The notes beneath the pieces were generated by a model. That model was not told the origin of the DNA and did not search any database. It worked only from the letters and a program-made list of their open reading frames with translations. Made by a program: the position numbers and the translations under genes. DNA of 44,121 bases. Origin: Caldifarciminota bacterium. Lineage in GTDB: Bacteria > Hydrothermota > UBA3072. This document shows, in pieces, positions 2,967 through 14,205 of this stretch. Within the stretch, counting starts at the first letter, position 1; every line of letters starts with the position of its first letter. The stretch is from contig JAGLZA010000197.1 in NCBI GenBank assembly GCA_023131835.1, forward strand, positions 1-44,121. The letters run 5' to 3'.

Positions 2967-2997
2967 TTATAAAAACTATTAATATAAGGAGGTGAGG

Positions 2998-4518
2998 ATG
3001 CAAATCATTAGAGGTTTTGACTTATTTATTGTAATTGCTTATCTTGCTCTTATTCCACTTTTTGGTGTGTTTTTTAAACGGTATGTAAAAACAAGTAAGG
3101 ATTATTTCCTGGCGGGTAGAATGCTTCCTTTCTGGGTAATCGGCATGTCTTTGATTGGCACTAACATTGGAGCATATGATTATATAGGCGCAGCTGGAGG
3201 TGCGTATCGTTTTGGTTTAGTTCAGGCCAATTATGAATGGATTGGAGCAATTCCTGCAATGGTGCTTGCTTCTTTACTCTTTATTCCTTTTTACTGGAAG
3301 AGCGGAGTATATACTGTGCCAGAATTTTTGGGTAAGCGCTACAGTACAGCGGTAAGAACAATTGAAGCTATATTATGGACTGCCTTTTTGGCCTCTGTTC
3401 TGGGAATATTCTTCTGGGCAAGTGGATTGATGTTACACACCTATTTAGGATGGAACCTTCGGTTTAGTATTTATCTAATTGCCGTTATTGTAGCAATTTA
3501 CACTGTAACAGGTGGGTTAGCGGCAGTAGCAATGACTGATGTTGTGCAAATGTTAGTAATGTTTATTGGCGGATTGGCGGTATTGATAATAGGTTTCAAT
3601 TTAACTGGTGGATGGACTGGATTGGTAAATATGATTCAACCTACCCATCCACAACATTTCCAGTTATTTCTTCCACTGGATCATCCTCAATATCCATGGT
3701 TGGGAGTACTGTTTGGTTTGGGATTAGTTCTTTCCCCTGCATGGTGGTGTTGTCATCAGGCAATTATCCAAAGAACCCTTGGAGCAAAAAGTGCATGGGA
3801 TGCAAAAGCCTCGATGATGGGTGCTGCTTTCCTTAAAATGTTAGTACCCTTATTAGTAATTATACCAGGGTTTTTTGCTCTGGCTTTGTGTAAAGACCCT
3901 TCGGCGATCACGAATCCTGACCAGGCTTTTCCCTGGGTTATGCGTAACCTATTACCTGTAGGATTAAGTGGATTGGTTTTTGCCAGTTTTATAGCAGCTC
4001 TTCTTTCTTCAATGGATTCTACTATAAATTCAACTGCTACTATCTTGACCAGGGATATTTACCAGAAGTTTTTCAGGAAAGAAGCATCAGATAAACACTA
4101 TTTGTTATTCGGTAGAGTAATAACTATAATCCTTGTAGCATGGGGTGTAATTTTTGCTCCGGTAACCAATAAATTCCCTGGAATATACGTTGCAATGCAG
4201 ACCCTTCTTTCCTATTTCCAGGGACCGACATTTGCGACTGTTTTATTAGGCATTATCTGGAGTAGAGCTAATAGATGGGGCGGGTTGATTGGACTTGTGG
4301 GTGGAGTAGGAATTTCCGTTGGTCTTAGTATAAGTGGGATGAATTTTCTCTATGTTGCATGGTGGTCATTTGTAGGTTCTTTGATTTTAAACATTGTGGT
4401 AAGTTTATTAACGAAGCCAGAACCTTTAGAGAAAATACGGGGGCTTGTATATGGGTTTGTTATAAAAGACCATTCAACACAGAAGTTGTTAAAGAAAAGA
4501 GCAGAAGGAGGAAAATAA
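2998..4518 (+). CDS. Sodium:solute symporter (SSS family), probable Na+/galactose transporter
   Basis: A 506-residue inner-membrane protein with about 13-14 hydrophobic helices, the usual size for the SSS/SGLT family. It shows the family's N-terminal GTNIGAYDYIGAAG region, the GGLAAVAMTDVVQ segment in the middle, and the serine-rich SSMDSTINSTATIL helix (about residues 330-350), where the conserved sodium site sits in vSGLT. Substrate is inferred from the neighbours: galT, galK and a mutarotase follow on the same strand. The start is ATG 2998 rather than GTG 2992, because AAGGAGG (2986-2992) overlaps the GTG and lies 5 bases before the ATG. The stop overlaps the next gene's start (TAATG), so translation is coupled to the small downstream genes. 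Confidence 0.9.
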   Translation: MQIIRGFDLFIVIAYLALIPLFGVFFKRYVKTSKDYFLAGRMLPFWVIGMSLIGTNIGAYDYIGAAGGAYRFGLVQANYEWIGAIPAMVLASLLFIPFYWKSGVYTVPEFLGKRYSTAVRTIEAILWTAFLASVLGIFFWASGLMLHTYLGWNLRFSIYLIAVIVAIYTVTGGLAAVAMTDVVQMLVMFIGGLAVLIIGFNLTGGWTGLVNMIQPTHPQHFQLFLPLDHPQYPWLGVLFGLGLVLSPAWWCCHQAIIQRTLGAKSAWDAKASMMGAAFLKMLVPLLVIIPGFFALALCKDPSAITNPDQAFPWVMRNLLPVGLSGLVFASFIAALLSSMDSTINSTATILTRDIYQKFFRKEASDKHYLLFGRVITIILVAWGVIFAPVTNKFPGIYVAMQTLLSYFQGPTFATVLLGIIWSRANRWGGLIGLVGGVGISVGLSISGMNFLYVAWWSFVGSLILNIVVSLLTKPEPLEKIRGLVYGFVIKDHSTQKLLKKRAEGGK

Positions 4519-5606: not shown

Positions 5607-6593
5607 ATGTATGAATTAAGATGGAATCCAGTATTAAAATGGTGGGTAATGGTATCTTCAGAAAGGCAAAATAGACCACTTACTCCCGAGGACTACTGCC
5701 CTTTCTGCCCAGAATCTGATAAGGTCCCTGATGATTACGTTGTGCTTTCTTACCCAAATGACTGGCCTATTTTGAGAGAAGACCCCCCTGAAGTTTCACC
5801 TGAAGGATCTCCAATATACAAAAGGGCAAAATCGTATGGGAAATGCGAGGTTATTCTCTATTCGCCGAACCACAATACTTCTCTTGGTGAACTATCTTTA
5901 GAACAGATCGAAAAGCTATTTGAACTCTGGGTAGAACGTTATAATGAACTTGGTAACAAGGAGTTTATAAAATACGTTTTTATATTCGAAAATAGAGGGA
6001 AGGAAGTGGGAGTTACCATTGCTCACCCTCATGGACAGATTTACGGATTTCCTTTTATTCCCAAAAAGATAGAAGTTGAATTAGAATCTTGTAAGGAATA
6101 CTTTGTAAAAGAGAAAAAATGTCTTTATTGCCAAATATTAGAAGAAGAATTAAGATTAAAAGATAGAATTGTTGATGAAAATGAATCTTTTGTTACCTTC
6201 GTTCCTTTTTTTGCGGATTACCCTTACCAGGTATTTATTATACCCCGAGAGCACCGATTATCAATAAATGACTTCGATGAAAAAGAGAAAAAACATTTCT
6301 GCAGATCAATAAAAAGGATTGTACAAACGTATGATAAATTATTTGATAGGGTATTTCCATATATGATGTGTTTCCACCAGAAACCAACCGATGGTAAGGA
6401 TTATCCTTATTACCATTTCCATGTTGAATTCTATCCCCCTTTGCGAAATCACTACACCCAGAAGTTTAATGCAAGTTCTGAAACAGGCTCATGGACACAT
6501 GGAAATCCCACTTCTCCAGAAGAGAAGGCCAAAGAGTTAGGAAACATAATGGAGAATTTAAAGGAGGAAAAAAATAATAAAAAAAAGAGTTGA
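5607..6593 (+). CDS. galT: Galactose-1-phosphate uridylyltransferase
   Basis: Transfers UMP between UDP-glucose and galactose-1-phosphate in the Leloir pathway, in the cytoplasm. The 328 residues match the family size. The HIT-type active site HPHGQ (about residues 140-144) is present, with the second His as the nucleophile of the family. A CPFC pair (Cys31, Cys34) matches the metal-binding pair of GalT enzymes; a further CLYC pair lies near residues 172-175. The C-terminal half has the second HIT-like domain, with an HFHVEFYPP strand. The weak AGGAG site 6 bases upstream supports ATG 5607. The 3' end is A-rich and overlaps the start of galK by about 20 bases, so the two are co-translated. 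Confidence 0.95.
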   Translation: MYELRWNPVLKWWVMVSSERQNRPLTPEDYCPFCPESDKVPDDYVVLSYPNDWPILREDPPEVSPEGSPIYKRAKSYGKCEVILYSPNHNTSLGELSLEQIEKLFELWVERYNELGNKEFIKYVFIFENRGKEVGVTIAHPHGQIYGFPFIPKKIEVELESCKEYFVKEKKCLYCQILEEELRLKDRIVDENESFVTFVPFFADYPYQVFIIPREHRLSINDFDEKEKKHFCRSIKRIVQTYDKLFDRVFPYMMCFHQKPTDGKDYPYYHFHVEFYPPLRNHYTQKFNASSETGSWTHGNPTSPEEKAKELGNIMENLKEEKNNKKKS

Positions 6594-7746
6594 AAATCTA
6601 AAAGAAGAATTTAGGAAAAGGTTTGGAGATAAAAACCAAATTCGAATCTTCAACGCTCCCGGAAGGATAAATCTCATTGGAGAACATACCGATTATAACG
6701 GTGGTCTTGTTCTACCAGCAGCGATTGATAAAAGTATCCTGGCGATTGGGAGAGCCAGGGAAGATAGAATATTAAATTTAAAATCGATGAATTTTGAGAA
6801 AGAAATTTCCATCTCTCTGGACGAGATCAAGTATAGAAAAGAAGATGGTTGGACGAATTATCCCAAGGGAGTTGCCTGGGTGTTAGAAAGAGAGGGACTC
6901 CAATTAAAAGGTGCTGATGTAATTTTTGAAGGAAATATTCCTGTCGAAAGTGGTTTATCTTCATCTGCTGCTATTGAAGTGGTATCTATGCTAACTTTTT
7001 TAAATTTGTCAAATAAAAATCTACCACCAGAGAAAATTGCTCTTTTATCCAGAAAAGCAGAAAATGAATTTGTAGGAGTGAGCTGTGGAATTATGGATCA
7101 ATTTATCATCACTTTCGGGAAGAAGAATCATGCTTTACTCATTGATTGCAAGATACTGGATTATAAATTAGTTCCCTTTCGTAATGAAGGAAGCGTTTTA
7201 ATTGTAGGGAACACAAGGGTAAAAAGAGGCTTAACTAATTCGGAATACAATAAAAGAGTAGAGGAATGCACGGAAGGTCTTGAAATCCTTAAGAATAATA
7301 TATGCCGTCGAGATATAGAATGCCTGGGTGATATCACAATAGAAGAATTTAATCAATATAAAAAGAAGCTCCATTCTCCCATAGAGAAACGATGTGAGCA
7401 CGTAATAAATGAGAATGAAAGAGTTAAACAGGCAGTGGATTGTCTGGGAAAAGGTGACTTAGAGAATTTAGGTAATTTACTCAATGATTCTCATTATTCC
7501 TTAAGAGATCTTTATGAGGTTAGTTGTAAGGAATTAGATGTAATGGTAGAGGCAGCTTTAAAAATAAAAGGAGTTTTGGGGGCAAGAATGACGGGTGCAG
7601 GTTTTGGCGGATGTATGATTGCACTCGTAGATGAAAAATCCAAAGAGGAATTTGTAGAAAAAGTGGGTAAAGAATACGAGAGGAAGATTGGTATAAAGTG
7701 CGAGTTCTATATCTGTAAGGTCGAAAATGGTGCCCAAGAAATTTAA
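6574..7746 (+). CDS. galK: Galactokinase, apparently with an ATA start codon
   Basis: Phosphorylates galactose to galactose-1-phosphate with ATP. The galactokinase signature GRINLIGEHTDYNGG lies at about residues 30-44, the GHMP ATP-binding GLSSSAA motif at about 127-133, the catalytic-Asp region CGIMDQF at about 172, and the GARMTGAGFGG glycine-rich motif near the C-terminus. All are needed, so the first ATG of the frame (6787) is too late: it would delete the signature. Upstream of 6787 there is no in-frame ATG, GTG or TTG back to the stop at 6559. AAGGAGG (6561-6567) sits 6 bases before ATA 6574, the spacing used by other genes here. From that ATA the length is 390 residues, normal for GalK. 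A base error, or slippage on the A-runs joining it to galT, are alternatives. Confidence 0.85.
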   Translation: MIKKRVENLKEEFRKRFGDKNQIRIFNAPGRINLIGEHTDYNGGLVLPAAIDKSILAIGRAREDRILNLKSMNFEKEISISLDEIKYRKEDGWTNYPKGVAWVLEREGLQLKGADVIFEGNIPVESGLSSSAAIEVVSMLTFLNLSNKNLPPEKIALLSRKAENEFVGVSCGIMDQFIITFGKKNHALLIDCKILDYKLVPFRNEGSVLIVGNTRVKRGLTNSEYNKRVEECTEGLEILKNNICRRDIECLGDITIEEFNQYKKKLHSPIEKRCEHVINENERVKQAVDCLGKGDLENLGNLLNDSHYSLRDLYEVSCKELDVMVEAALKIKGVLGARMTGAGFGGCMIALVDEKSKEEFVEKVGKEYERKIGIKCEFYICKVENGAQEI

Positions 7747-8245: not shown

Positions 8246-9364
8246 ATGGAGGGCAAATTTTGGATTTGTTTAGGTTTGACAGCACTAATAATCAGTATGT
8301 GTAACTGTAGAAAAGGACCAACCACAGTGAGTATCCAGAAAGAATCTTTTGGGCAAACCACAAGCGGTAAGCAAATTGATTTGTACACTCTAACCAATGC
8401 CAATGGTCTCAAAGTTAGGATTATAAACTATGGAGCCACTCTTGTTTCTCTGGAGGTTCCAGACCGAAATGGAAAACTTGCCGATGTTACACTCGGTTAC
8501 GATTCCCTGGAGGGATATATCAAAGATGCTTCTTATTTAGGTACGACTGTTGGTAGATACGCCAATCGTATTGCCAGGGGTAAGTTTACGATAAAGGGTG
8601 TCGATTATCAGCTTGCAACTAACAATGGAGAAAATCACTTGCACGGCGGAAAAAAAGGATTTAATAAAAGGATCTGGAACGCAGAGAAAGTGAAAACGGT
8701 AGAGGGACCAGGGGTGAAGTTATCTTATCTAAGCAAAGACGGCGAAGAGGCATATCCGGGAAATCTCACATGCACTGTCACATATACCCTGACAAATGAT
8801 AATGAATTAAAGATCAGTTATGAGGCCGAAACCGACAAAGCCACCCCGATAAATCTGAGCCATCATAGCTATTTTAATCTTGCAGGTCAGGGCAATGGTG
8901 ATATTTTAGGTCATAAACTTATGCTAAATGCCAATAAGTATACCCCGGTCGATGAAGATTTAATACCCACAGGTGAAATTAAGAATGTAAAAGGAACCCC
9001 ATTAGACTTTACCCAAGCCGAACTCATAGGTTCTCGGATTGACCAGGTTCCTGGTGGTTATGATAATAATTTTGTGCTCAACAGTGGTGGGGATTCACTG
9101 GCTCTGGCTGCAAGAGTGTATGAACCTAACAGTGGGCGGGTGATGGAAATCTACACCACTGAACCTGGTATGCAATTCTATACCGGAAACTTTCTGGAAG
9201 GAATAAAAGGTAAATCCGGTAAGGTATATGATAAACAGTATGGATTCTGCCTGGAGACGCAACACTTCCCGGATTCACCAAATAAACCCAACTTCCCGTC
9301 GACAATTCTCAATCCTGGGGAGAAATACACACAGACTACTATACATAAATTTTATACCAGGTGA
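8246..9364 (+). CDS. galM: Secreted aldose 1-epimerase (galactose mutarotase)
   Basis: Interconverts alpha and beta anomers of galactose or glucose. The 372 residues comprise a hydrophobic N-terminal segment (about residues 5-20) followed by Cys residues and then a full GalM domain; the mature enzyme is likely exported, possibly as a lipoprotein, although the lipobox is poor. Family catalytic residues are visible: His in ENHLHGG, His in INLSHHSYFNLAG, and the C-terminal Glu in GFCLETQHFPD. AAGGAGG lies 5 bases before the ATG. It is on the same strand as galT-galK but separated by the mobile element, so it is probably transcribed separately. An exported mutarotase fits beside secreted alpha-galactosidases that release alpha-galactose. 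Confidence 0.92.
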   Translation: MEGKFWICLGLTALIISMCNCRKGPTTVSIQKESFGQTTSGKQIDLYTLTNANGLKVRIINYGATLVSLEVPDRNGKLADVTLGYDSLEGYIKDASYLGTTVGRYANRIARGKFTIKGVDYQLATNNGENHLHGGKKGFNKRIWNAEKVKTVEGPGVKLSYLSKDGEEAYPGNLTCTVTYTLTNDNELKISYEAETDKATPINLSHHSYFNLAGQGNGDILGHKLMLNANKYTPVDEDLIPTGEIKNVKGTPLDFTQAELIGSRIDQVPGGYDNNFVLNSGGDSLALAARVYEPNSGRVMEIYTTEPGMQFYTGNFLEGIKGKSGKVYDKQYGFCLETQHFPDSPNKPNFPSTILNPGEKYTQTTIHKFYTR

Positions 9365-9505: not shown

Positions 9506-12004
9506 CTATTTTTCAATCTTTGCATTCCCCCAATTAGCATGGTCATAATTGATCCCATCGCCTGCATCATCGACATGAAGTCTTAATTTATCGACATCAG
9601 AGATATCGATTTTAATTGGCAAAGCAGGATCAGAGAAAGTCATCACCTCACTCTCCCAGAGCAACTTGCCATCACCATAGACTTTAAATATTACTGAGCC
9701 CCTTTTGCATTTTGTGGAATATTCATCCATTCCCACCTCGGCAGTATAGGTTTTATAGTGTCCTTTCAAAGAATATTCGATATCAGACACAGCATGAGTG
9801 CCAATTCCTTTGGAATAAATTTTATCACCAATTATTAAAGGACGATTGTCAATCGCTTTATCGCTTTTAGGTGCCCCACCCCAACTAGCAATAGCATATT
9901 CTGGCTCGATATCTGATAAAAATACCTCTCCGGGATAGAGTTGACTGAGTACAATTTTTGTGGATGCTTTCTTTTTGCTTTCAGTTCCATCATACCAAAC
10001 AGCTGCAATCTCTATCAGATCTTTTTCAGATAGATCAAGATTTCTTAAAATAACATGGCTGACTGGCGTCATTCCCACCAATTTTTTATCATAATAAACA
10101 TGATAGCCAGCAGTCAATGAATAATTAGGCTGCCATGATAATTTCAAACCACTAAAGCCAACAGGTTCGACATTAATTTCATTGGGATTACTGATCGGAT
10201 AATTATATAAATCGGCTGACTCAAAAACAACTTTCCAGCTTATCCTTTTAGACACAGGGCTGGTAAATTGAACACTTGCCCAGCCTTGATGGTTTTTCAC
10301 CACGGTCTCCAGATTTTCAGCTTCGGCCGCTTTTACCCGATAACCTTTCCCCCCTCTGGGAAATGCAAATCGTAATTCGTAGGTATCATTTCCAATCACT
10401 TGACTTTCGCCATGATATGTATTCGTCTTTGAATCGTAACTTAATTCAATCAAATCCACCCAGCCTTGCGTTATATGTCTGTTCGTGGAGATTAATTGAG
10501 GAGATTCTCCAGCAGCAACCAATGTTAAAACCCGACAACTTGCTGGTGCAAGATTGACAAAATATCCTTTTTCCCAACAGCCTAGATATTCTCCCTCCCA
10601 GAAATCAAAAAGATGTATTTTGGCACCAGCCCCCAACCCCAAGTCTTCCCAATTGAGATAGACCATATCTGTTTTATCGGTCTTATAATTAAAACATCCA
10701 ACCACGTCATAGTTTCTGCCGAGATGGTTTATTTTTAAGTCCCATATTTTTTTATTTTTCCTGGATGGGAATAGATCCAGAGGACGGATATCCACGGCTG
10801 GATAAATCCGTTTCATGATCTCTACCCGATTTTGCGAAAGATCCGTCAACCGATCGCTCGCCATTAATACCTGTCCAGTAAGTCCCTGTAATGTCGCCCA
10901 GGCTCGAGCCATATCCAGGGTTAAGGGGTGGCGCAGACACATCACATCAGGATCGCAATACCAGGCAATATTGTGCAGATAATAATAGTGCATGGTAGCC
11001 TCAAGCGCAGTCATGAAACCACCATCCCAGGATAACACAATATCCCCGCCAGTACGAGAACCATCCATAATTCCTATACCGTCAAGTGGAATGCCCCAGC
11101 AGCCCAATAAATAGCGATCTGGCCCGATTGTCTCTCGAATAATATTCAAAGTGTGACGATATGACTCTATAGGATCGAGATTGGGGATCTTCATGAAGGA
11201 TTGCTTATCTTTGTACTCATTGATAACAATGGGCTGACCATCAATTTTAAAATAAACGTAACCCCATTCATCAGCCAATGTGCTAAACAGATTCTGAAAA
11301 TATTCATCGGCATGCGGCGCCGTAGGATCTAATAGATATGTACCTTCCCAGGTACTGGAAGCAGAACTACCATCTTTTTTCAATAAAAATGTATTCCACT
11401 TATTCACTACTTTTTTATTGCTTTGACCGTGAGGCGCTAACCATATCCCCGGCAATAGACCCAACTGGCTGATGTATGCTGCCAATTCCTCCATTCCCCC
11501 AGAGAAACGTTTATCAATGGTTGTCCAGTCTCGATTTTCTCCAAGACCGTGTCCGCTCCCCTGCCAGCCGTCATCGATCTGACAGTAGAGGGCGCCGTAT
11601 TCTTTCAAATTTTCAGCCATCCATTCAGCATTTTTCTTGATCTCATCCGCAGGAATTTCTTGATAATAGTAATACCAGGAACACCATCCTGATGGCGGCA
11701 ACGGGAAATGGGTCTTATCAATCGGTCTAAAATATTTTATGTTCAGAGTGTCTTTATAGTAGTTTTTTATTTGTGTGTCATCTCTCAGTATAACTAAATC
11801 TTGTTGCGGATCAAAAGTACCCTGAGATAATTGGGTTTGTACATTTCCGAGAGTCATAATAAATAGTTCAGGATTTGTGCCATTTTTGATGCGACAGGGG
11901 ATTCGGTAGGAATAGGTAGTTCTATCCTTGGAAAAAGCCAACAAATAAAAGGGCAATGATGTCAACAGACAACTGATAGCCAGTTTGAAAAATATCTTAA
12001 CCAT
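9506..12004 (-). CDS. Secreted GH36-type alpha-galactosidase-like enzyme with NPCBM domain
   Basis: An 832-residue secreted glycosidase. The signal peptide begins MVKIFFKLAISCLL. The catalytic barrel carries motifs of the GH36 alpha-galactosidase/raffinose-synthase (Sip1-like) group: GWCSW (about residue 105), a DDGWQGSG strand, YFKIDGQP (about 250, likely nucleophile Asp) and MDGSRTGGD (about 318, likely acid/base Asp). A fibronectin-III-like stretch follows (about 610-690). The last about 140 residues are an NPCBM carbohydrate-binding module (KGIGTHAVSDIEYSL; VDDAGDGINYDHANWGNA). Start: the ATG at 12016 is rejected because GGAGG (12010-12014) overlaps its codons and lies 5 bases before ATG 12004. 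It probably removes alpha-linked galactose outside the cytoplasm for the adjacent gal genes; exact substrate unknown. Confidence 0.85.
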   Translation of the reverse strand: MVKIFFKLAISCLLTSLPFYLLAFSKDRTTYSYRIPCRIKNGTNPELFIMTLGNVQTQLSQGTFDPQQDLVILRDDTQIKNYYKDTLNIKYFRPIDKTHFPLPPSGWCSWYYYYQEIPADEIKKNAEWMAENLKEYGALYCQIDDGWQGSGHGLGENRDWTTIDKRFSGGMEELAAYISQLGLLPGIWLAPHGQSNKKVVNKWNTFLLKKDGSSASSTWEGTYLLDPTAPHADEYFQNLFSTLADEWGYVYFKIDGQPIVINEYKDKQSFMKIPNLDPIESYRHTLNIIRETIGPDRYLLGCWGIPLDGIGIMDGSRTGGDIVLSWDGGFMTALEATMHYYYLHNIAWYCDPDVMCLRHPLTLDMARAWATLQGLTGQVLMASDRLTDLSQNRVEIMKRIYPAVDIRPLDLFPSRKNKKIWDLKINHLGRNYDVVGCFNYKTDKTDMVYLNWEDLGLGAGAKIHLFDFWEGEYLGCWEKGYFVNLAPASCRVLTLVAAGESPQLISTNRHITQGWVDLIELSYDSKTNTYHGESQVIGNDTYELRFAFPRGGKGYRVKAAEAENLETVVKNHQGWASVQFTSPVSKRISWKVVFESADLYNYPISNPNEINVEPVGFSGLKLSWQPNYSLTAGYHVYYDKKLVGMTPVSHVILRNLDLSEKDLIEIAAVWYDGTESKKKASTKIVLSQLYPGEVFLSDIEPEYAIASWGGAPKSDKAIDNRPLIIGDKIYSKGIGTHAVSDIEYSLKGHYKTYTAEVGMDEYSTKCKRGSVIFKVYGDGKLLWESEVMTFSDPALPIKIDISDVDKLRLHVDDAGDGINYDHANWGNAKIEK

Positions 12005-12141
12005 GAAAACCTCCATAATAATATTACCACCTAAATTGAGCGATTTTTCCTTATTTTGATAATCATACTAATTTTTTCGCTTACGTCAATCCCTCGAACG
12101 CCAATTCTGGAAATATCAGTGGGAAAAGTAGTAGAATTCTC

Positions 12142-14205
12142 CTAATCATGGTTTGCCCCGCTATGACATTGGCCATGATATAATAAAAGCAGATGTGCCG
12201 CGGACCAGCTGAAGTGCCTGGCATTTAGCCCTTTCCCATTCAAGGGATTATAATTTTCATAAATTGGCTCACCACTTTGTTTTAATCCTTCAAGACGATC
12301 GAAAAGTTGCCGGATAAACCTGTTAGCATCTTCCATATATCCATAATGTTCAAGACCTTTAATGGCAAAGTAGGCCTGATCCAGCCAGACGGGTCCCCGC
12401 CAGTAACCATCATAAGTGGGGATAAATTCCGGATGAACTTTGGCCATGGTTGGGAAGGGAATATATGTGGCAAATTTCGTTGGATCCAACATAACCTGCT
12501 TTACTTGTCCAGCCTGTTCCGGAGTTGCCACACCAGCCCAGAGTGGTATCCAGCCTTCTGGACCCTGAATCCTACAAAAGCCCTTTCCATCCAACAAAAT
12601 ATCATAAAAATAATCTGATTTCTGATCAAACATATATTTCTGAATCATCAATTTCAAAGTCTCAGATTCCTGATTAAAAGTTATTACATCACTTTCGTTA
12701 TCCAAAGCATCAGCCATTAATGTTAGGTATTTTTTCTCAGCATATAAATAGGAGTTTAAATCAACAGATTCACGATTCACAGACCAGCTGTGCGCACCGT
12801 TTTGTAACATAACGGCATTATCAAAACGAACCGCATTATCCATGCCGCTTTCCCAGGCAGCGGCTACCAATGTGCCATCGGTTGAACCATATTCACATAA
12901 CCCATTTCGATCATGATCACGATAAGTATACCAAAATCGATGATAACGAAGGAGTTTTGGATACATTTCCTGAAGAAATGCCTTATCATTGGTTTGTTTA
13001 TAGACTAACCACACGGCCCAGGCAGCTAGGGGCGGTTTGGTATTGCGGAGATTATTATAACGTTTATCCAGTCGTATCACATCTGGGACCATACCTCTTT
13101 TATCTTGATAGTCGAACATAGCACGGATTTGATCTTTGGCTAACTCTGGTTCAAACAAGGAAAGAGCGACAGCGTGCTTCCATGAATCCCAGGCCCAGAA
13201 TCCGTGAAATCGTTGATACGAAGGATACAAACCTGCATGAATTAAATCACCTCCGGGACTCCGCCAATTAATGATTAAGGTCTCCAGGCACTTTACTGCT
13301 ATAGTCTGATATGCATCTTCAGAAGCCCACCCTTTAGCAGTCGAAAGTAATACCTTTAGATATCCGTTCCATCGATTTCCGTTTGCTGAAAAACACTCTT
13401 CCGGGTTTTTGAAAACTTTATTTATAATTTGTTCTTCAGTTGCTATCTCTGTGGAATCAAAACATACTGTTTGGATCAAATATGATTTATATGATCGACC
13501 TGGAGAGAGCTGTAATGTTCTTTTTGCCTCTATGTAATAAGCCTTCCCACCATCGGATAGAGTGGTTTTTACCACCATCTCTGGCGGTAGAGTTAACCTG
13601 ACAGTGGATTCTCCTTTTTCTAAATTTATAACTATCCCTTCTGCATTATGAATTAAAAATGCTTGCTTTAAAAAAATATTGCCTTGCCAGCCTATTCGCA
13701 ACCGAATCGGTTTCGAGGAAATATTTAAAATGTTAGTGCGGATCAGAGCTGAACGGGAAGAAATAAAATACAGGTCTATCTGAATAGAAATGCCATCTAC
13801 CTGAAACTCTTGAGTTAATAATCCGGGAAAAAAAGTAAATTTTGGATTCTGACATTGTGATAGATCAATTATCCGATCATTCTCTATATTATACAGAGTT
13901 AACTTTGTCAAACAGCGACTGAGCCAGCGATTCTGGGCTATTAAGAATGGTCCAATAAAACCGCCGAAAAATGAGGTTTGTGACCTACCAGGAAGTGCAT
14001 AACCATGCCAGGCTCCGAGATCCGAAAAACATGATACTGATAAATCACCGGGCTGACTGGGAACTCCTTGTATGTTCAGTACATCAGGAAATGCATTAAT
14101 AGTTGGTTCTGAACCAGCAGCGACATTTGGTTCAACTCGGAAAAGTGCAAAGACAAGCAGATATAAACATAATATACGTTTTGAAAGTAAGTATTCTATT
14201 TTCAT
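12142..14205 (-). CDS. Secreted GH63/trehalase-like (alpha/alpha)6-barrel glycosidase
   Basis: A 687-residue secreted enzyme with an N-terminal signal segment (about residues 10-30, LCLYLLVFALF). The N-terminal third is a beta-rich domain. From about residue 290 there is an (alpha/alpha)6 barrel of the GH63/MGH1/trehalase superfamily: GFWAWDSWKHA (about 335, the Asp corresponds to the general acid in GH63), RGPVWLDQAYFA, and PIYENYNPLNG near the C-terminus (the Glu corresponds to the base). The family includes E. coli YgjK, which acts on glucosyl-galactose bonds, but the substrate here is not determinable. GGAGG precedes ATG 14205 by 5 bases. It lies upstream of the GH36-like gene on the same strand (137-base gap), so the two may be co-transcribed. 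Confidence 0.8.
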   Translation of the reverse strand: MKIEYLLSKRILCLYLLVFALFRVEPNVAAGSEPTINAFPDVLNIQGVPSQPGDLSVSCFSDLGAWHGYALPGRSQTSFFGGFIGPFLIAQNRWLSRCLTKLTLYNIENDRIIDLSQCQNPKFTFFPGLLTQEFQVDGISIQIDLYFISSRSALIRTNILNISSKPIRLRIGWQGNIFLKQAFLIHNAEGIVINLEKGESTVRLTLPPEMVVKTTLSDGGKAYYIEAKRTLQLSPGRSYKSYLIQTVCFDSTEIATEEQIINKVFKNPEECFSANGNRWNGYLKVLLSTAKGWASEDAYQTIAVKCLETLIINWRSPGGDLIHAGLYPSYQRFHGFWAWDSWKHAVALSLFEPELAKDQIRAMFDYQDKRGMVPDVIRLDKRYNNLRNTKPPLAAWAVWLVYKQTNDKAFLQEMYPKLLRYHRFWYTYRDHDRNGLCEYGSTDGTLVAAAWESGMDNAVRFDNAVMLQNGAHSWSVNRESVDLNSYLYAEKKYLTLMADALDNESDVITFNQESETLKLMIQKYMFDQKSDYFYDILLDGKGFCRIQGPEGWIPLWAGVATPEQAGQVKQVMLDPTKFATYIPFPTMAKVHPEFIPTYDGYWRGPVWLDQAYFAIKGLEHYGYMEDANRFIRQLFDRLEGLKQSGEPIYENYNPLNGKGLNARHFSWSAAHLLLLYHGQCHSGANHD

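Follow-up and report, generated by a model that had tools for sequence, protein, structure and literature searches.

Which codon opens galK when its reading frame offers none of the usual start codons ahead of the conserved part of the protein? This question is raised by the galT-galK junction of a Caldifarciminota bacterium (genome G000, 3.89 Mb in 537 contigs), found on a stretch of 44,121 nucleotides, here called the window, that corresponds to contig C109 of this genome. The first-pass annotation of this DNA had placed the galK start at an ATA inside the tail of galT, with slippage on two adjacent runs of A as an alternative; its coordinates, A-runs and frame arithmetic were all found to be correct on re-checking. 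From the comparisons described below, a probability of about 0.75 is assigned to the reading that, in this lineage, the AUG of galK has been replaced by AUA (6574-6576) and that this codon would support genuine, weak initiation. The features on which the argument is built are collected in Table 1.

The galK frame and its product

As previously noted from the sequence, the galK frame (open over 6562-7746) contains no ATG, GTG or TTG between the stop codon at 6559 and the ATG at 6787. The latter corresponds to residue 76 of the frame, and the PF10509 signature, occupying residues 15-64, lies mostly upstream of it, with the galactokinase motif GRINLIGEHTDY at about 6660-6700. No AUG, GUG or UUG is able to give this conserved N-terminus. 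The product scores 383 bits against the galactokinase profile TIGR00131 (cut-off 226.65) and carries the GHMP kinase domains PF10509, PF00288 and PF08544. The nearest relative compared, G003, belongs to the same family and to another genus; its GalK shares 75.6% identity with the protein described here over 390 codons, and the expectation of a normal-length enzyme from ATA 6574 is borne out by the identical length of 390 aa in the two genomes. Comparison with G003 galK gives a dN/dS of about 0.10 gene-wide, with dS near saturation, and of 0.12 in the first 62 codons, which indicates that the N-terminal stretch is under selection as protein. Catalytic motifs and full length are intact. The gene is thus intact and under constraint, and the best-supported interpretation is that galK is a functional galactokinase gene.

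The same values bear on the possibility that galK is decaying, its start having been lost recently, its translation being negligible and too little time having passed for the ORF to be disrupted. In favor of decay, the loss of the start is seen in a single genome, and galK is single copy, with no second copy found in G000 that could take over. However, the preserved motifs and length, the dN/dS of about 0.10, a Shine-Dalgarno (SD) sequence longer than that of G003 at 6-nt spacing and the intact galactose genes around galK make this scenario very unlikely.

The tail of galT spans the galK start, the two genes overlapping by 20 nt, and the galT stop codon TGA (6591) lies 14 nt beyond the galK start codon. 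The order symporter-galT-galK is kept in G003, and the galactose genes that flank galK are intact. Convergent to them, on the minus strand (9506-14205), a melibiase/NPCBM protein and a YgjK/trehalase-like glycosidase are encoded, which are possibly suppliers of galactose.

Table 1. Coordinates of the galT-galK region in the window and of two further G000 genes with candidate near-cognate starts.
Feature	Position	Strand	Evidence and remarks
Sodium:solute symporter	2992-4518	plus	PF00474; 85% identical to the G003 orthologue, on the same contig as G003 galT-galK
galT, galactose-1-phosphate uridylyltransferase	5607-6593	plus	ATG 5607, TGA 6591-6593; TIGR00209 205.8 bits, cut-off 102.1
TAA, closest upstream stop in the galK frame	6559-6561	plus	
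Shine-Dalgarno AAGGAGG of galK	6561-6567	plus	AAAGGAGG from 6560; sequence and 16S complementarity
A7 run	6568-6574	plus	Spacer and first base of ATA; A5 in G003
Proposed AUA start codon of galK	6574-6576	plus	Corresponds to the G003 ATG codon; within galT tail
galK, galactokinase	6574-7746	plus	390 aa counted from ATA; profiles, homology to G003
Second ATA, alternative galK start	6577-6579	plus	9 nt 3' of the SD
A8 run, possible slippage site	6579-6586	plus	A6 in G003
Aldose 1-epimerase (galM-like), downstream of galK	8246-9364	plus	PF01263, E 8.9e-105
Inositol monophosphatase, candidate start ATC	L123:6340-7125 (G000:C17)		AAAGGAGG-TAGTTT-ATC
Rhodanese lipoprotein, candidate start ATT where G004 has ATG	L139:11996-12451 (G000:C28)	minus	First canonical start not before codon 72

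The galT-galK junction in relatives

The junction reads ATTTATAGGAGGAAAAATGATCCAAAAAAGAATTGAG in G003 and AATTTAAAGGAGGAAAAAAATAATAAAAAAAAGAGTTGAA in the genome under study. In G003, galK begins with an ATG at the codon homologous to ATA 6574, so that an AUH codon (AUA, AUU or AUC) stands here where a related genome has a canonical start. The galK start is ATG in G002 and GTG/ATG in G005 and the canonical starts of all three relatives suggest that the ATA is derived. Among the relatives compared it is confined to G000, the near-cognate codon not being conserved at galK, and only one of the 82 galK loci scored, that of G000, is devoid of a canonical start before the motif. An ATG at 6574 or 6577 in relatives had been named beforehand as the sign of a base error in this sequence. 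Such an ATG does occur in G003 at 6574 but, as G003 represents another genus, it shows a replacement in the G000 lineage and does not show that the base is wrong.

A second difference concerns the end of galT, where the TAG stop of G003 corresponds to AAG (6561-6563); this stop being absent, galT continues to the TGA at 6591. The same base lengthens the SD, which is AAAGGAGG here vs AGGAGG in G003, and the spacer between SD and start is longer by two A. It has been reported that weak starts tend to be accompanied by stronger SD sequences (PMC5622118), and the changes at galK fit this tendency, even if a single case proves nothing.

An error in base calling or in the consensus, hiding a true ATG at 6574 or 6577, or a minority strain allele in the bin, would account for the ATA as well. 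In fact, a change of the single base 6576 restores the exact start of G003, the A at this position comes from one assembly as fragmented as described above, and the ATA sits between two A homopolymers. On the other side, frame breaks relative to G003 orthologues are absent from 377 kb, stops in the three sense genes checked occur nowhere but at the very 5' end of the aligned region, and AUH starts recur in other genes of G000 and of its family, in independent assemblies. If errors are so rare that the ORFs stay intact, one falling on precisely a start codon is very unlikely. Taken together, the unbroken frames and the AUH starts of other assemblies make a real AUA more likely, and an error is considered improbable.

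The slippage alternative holds that RNA polymerase or the ribosome slips on the A7/A8 tracts, with a net change of -1 A or +2 A, and that the resulting GalT-GalK fusion is the main source of GalK. The frames allow it: galK is at +1 relative to galT, and with one A lost the two would be joined in a single protein, as the first-pass annotation had stated. Moreover, the tracts are A7/A8 here vs A5/A6 in G003, and galT, lacking the G003 stop, runs through both of them. These points are circumstantial, however, as runs of A7 and A8 are ordinary in G000 (173 and 37, respectively, in 377 kb, both strands), fused GalT-GalK was encountered in none of the 82 loci, and a conserved slippery tract was not found in the relatives, where G003, G002 and G005 have canonical starts of their own and A-runs that are shorter or absent. 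Furthermore, the usual outcome of slippage on homopolymers is one additional A, which would leave galK out of frame, and in-run transcript deletions are rare in E. coli, although less so in Buchnera (PMC5574713). A -1 ribosomal frameshift at A_AAA_AAG was rejected, since it too gives the wrong frame. Slippage as the main route to GalK is thus highly improbable, and a GalT-GalK fusion is possible as a low-level by-product. The combination of 7-8-nt A tracts and a frame offset recalls the poly(A) slippage rescue of the A+T-rich endosymbionts Buchnera and Blochmannia; the difference is that galT and galK are each complete as genes, and with initiation at AUA neither frame would require repair.

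A different architecture was observed at another galK locus, L036 (JAMWCA010000059.1), where an open stretch of 261 codons precedes galK in its own frame (624 aa) and this upstream part resembles the tail of a nucleotidyltransferase. From its sequence, this frame may encode a fused nucleotidyltransferase-galactokinase.

Probable initiation at AUA

AUA is a very rare start codon. The hypothesis that it is recoded as Met in G000 was ruled out by its internal use, since internal ATA codons align in orthologues with I in 45.6%, V in 20.4% and M in 3.2% of cases (n=588) and behave as Ile. An altered initiator tRNA was ruled out as well, the tRNA having the usual GGGCTCATAACCC anticodon arm and a CAT anticodon. 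Together, these two observations indicate near-cognate initiation and not recoding.

As described at first pass, AAGGAGG stands exactly 6 nt before ATA 6574. A strong SD at proper spacing is therefore present: AAAGGAGG shows an 8-nt complementarity to the 16S 3' end CCTCCTTT, an anti-SD that is the one of the relative G003; the 16S 3' end of G000 itself was looked for and not found. The mRNA around the galK start is A-rich and predicted to be unstructured. From this arrangement it may be envisaged that ribosomes initiate with fMet on the near-cognate AUA, that the SD, followed by the unstructured A-rich stretch, would hold them at this codon, and that ribosomes terminating galT would re-initiate there. 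GalK would then perhaps reach between one tenth and one third of the level given by AUG, and its synthesis would be IF3-sensitive and tied to galT translation. We infer the codon actually used, the expression level and the coupling to galT from these features. The first-pass annotation had proposed an AUA start, which would make galK poorly translated or dependent on coupling to galT. The AUA start stands as the best-supported reading, and weak expression coupled to galT is what would be expected from it.

Several known systems provide terms of comparison. In Staphylococcus aureus, infC, ccpN and the strain-specific citZ have AUA starts with strong SD sequences; there, non-canonical starts give about 10% of the AUG level, and the AUA of ccpN up to 30% in rich medium (PMC13009471). 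These are metabolic or regulatory genes whose AUA follows a strong SD, as would that of galK, and the restriction of the galK AUA to G000 resembles the case of citZ, whose AUA occurs in a single strain lineage. The S. aureus starts were mapped by ribosome profiling and reporters, whereas that of galK is deduced from sequence, and galK differs from them in that its start lies inside the upstream gene. In E. coli, infC and pcnB start with AUU, have lowered expression and are IF3-sensitive, infC being autoregulated in this way. They share with galK a near-cognate start and differ from it in the codon and in having no overlapping sugar operon. Raised IF3 lowers both initiation at non-canonical codons and SD-less re-initiation (PMC2268962). 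As for coupling, E. coli galK is translationally coupled to galT (Schumperli et al., reviewed in PMC12548453). The gene pair is the same, with the galK start beside or within the end of galT, but the E. coli gene has a canonical start at +3 spacing, in contrast to the 20-nt overlap and the AUA described here.

With this start, galK would be a further member of an already known class, the AUA-start genes. Gene finders limited to ATG, GTG and TTG miss such a codon and would annotate galK from ATG 6787, as a protein of 319 aa without the galactose-binding signature.

AUH starts in G000 and its family

Genome-wide, AAGGAGG followed at 6 nt by ATA shows no excess in G000 (36 sites vs 35 in the control), and no excess of ATA after an SD was found in open frames; AUA is therefore not a general start codon in this genome. 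Among the 30 of these 36 sites that were read, galK is the sole ORF of more than 60 codons without a nearby canonical start. A survey of 968 kb, some 25% of G000, covered 579 non-overlapping ORFs of at least 150 aa. The real genes in which it found no canonical start close to the N-terminus were galK and two others, the inositol monophosphatase and the rhodanese lipoprotein of Table 1. Seven start-less ORFs had been flagged initially, and those discarded were one antisense shadow, two ORFs opening far upstream of a normal ATG and a methylase. The frame of the latter, an N6/N4 DNA methylase (L227:802-1683, minus strand, G000:C179), matches no more of the family profile than its C-terminal part, and the gene is probably truncated or broken. 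Among the start-less pairs that emerged from the orthologue comparison, the majority were likewise antisense shadows. The infC gene fell outside the survey filter, having a TTG at codon 20, and the thiL contig outside the survey.

Near-cognate starts of infC, the gene for IF3, are known elsewhere, and in this family infC was read in five genomes, with ATA in G000, G001 and G003 and ATT in G002 and G005 (loci L198, that is G000:C513, L197, L199, L200 and L201). The AUH codon is always 6 nt after GGAGG, and canonical starts are absent before codon 18. The inositol monophosphatase starts with ATC or ATT in five of six family genomes (G000, G001, G003, G004 and G005) in an ungapped alignment column that holds the ATG of G002 (L123 and L264-L268). 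As regards thiL (L280/L284, corresponding to G000:C521, and L156, L279 and L281-L283), which directly follows its upstream gene, the stretch from the in-frame stop to the GDDA motif is devoid of ATG, GTG and TTG in all six family genomes, whereas each of the 15 other phylum members scored has a canonical start 18-30 codons upstream of this motif. The family genomes have ATA (five) or ATT (G004) 20-27 codons ahead of the motif but, since an Ile codon in this interval is likely by chance, the evidence resides in the missing canonical starts and not in the ATA. A search of one literature library for near-cognate starts of thiL or inositol monophosphatase retrieved no paper.

Other candidates come from single genomes. 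A TatD-family nuclease of G003 (L154:6028-6801, G003:C8) has ATT behind AAGGAG where G001 has ATG, its first canonical start being codon 107. In the same genome, an ORF for a queuosine precursor transporter (L165:6873-7607, minus strand, G003:C18) has its first canonical start at codon 96, inside the family match, and probably starts at ATA or ATT. The candidate AUH set comprises infC, thiL and inositol monophosphatase as conserved members, together with genes from one genome each, namely galK, the rhodanese lipoprotein, tatD and perhaps queT.

Given that several other conserved genes of related bacteria also start at such weak codons, the AUA of galK would seem to be a genuine trait of the lineage and not a sequencing error, and the apparent pattern in the clade, drawn from parts of six genomes, is a more interesting lead than galK. 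It is a tentative and rather doubtful proposal that genes starting with AUA, AUU or AUC are unusually numerous in the family and that, by the choice of start codon, a small regulon could be tuned by the level of IF3. The conserved genes of the set offer natural tests of how IF3, SD strength and coupling compensate for a weak start, and they suggest that the sets of start codons applied to uncultured bacteria can be too narrow. The G000 genome measures 3.9 Mb, vs 1.6-2.3 Mb for the family members compared.
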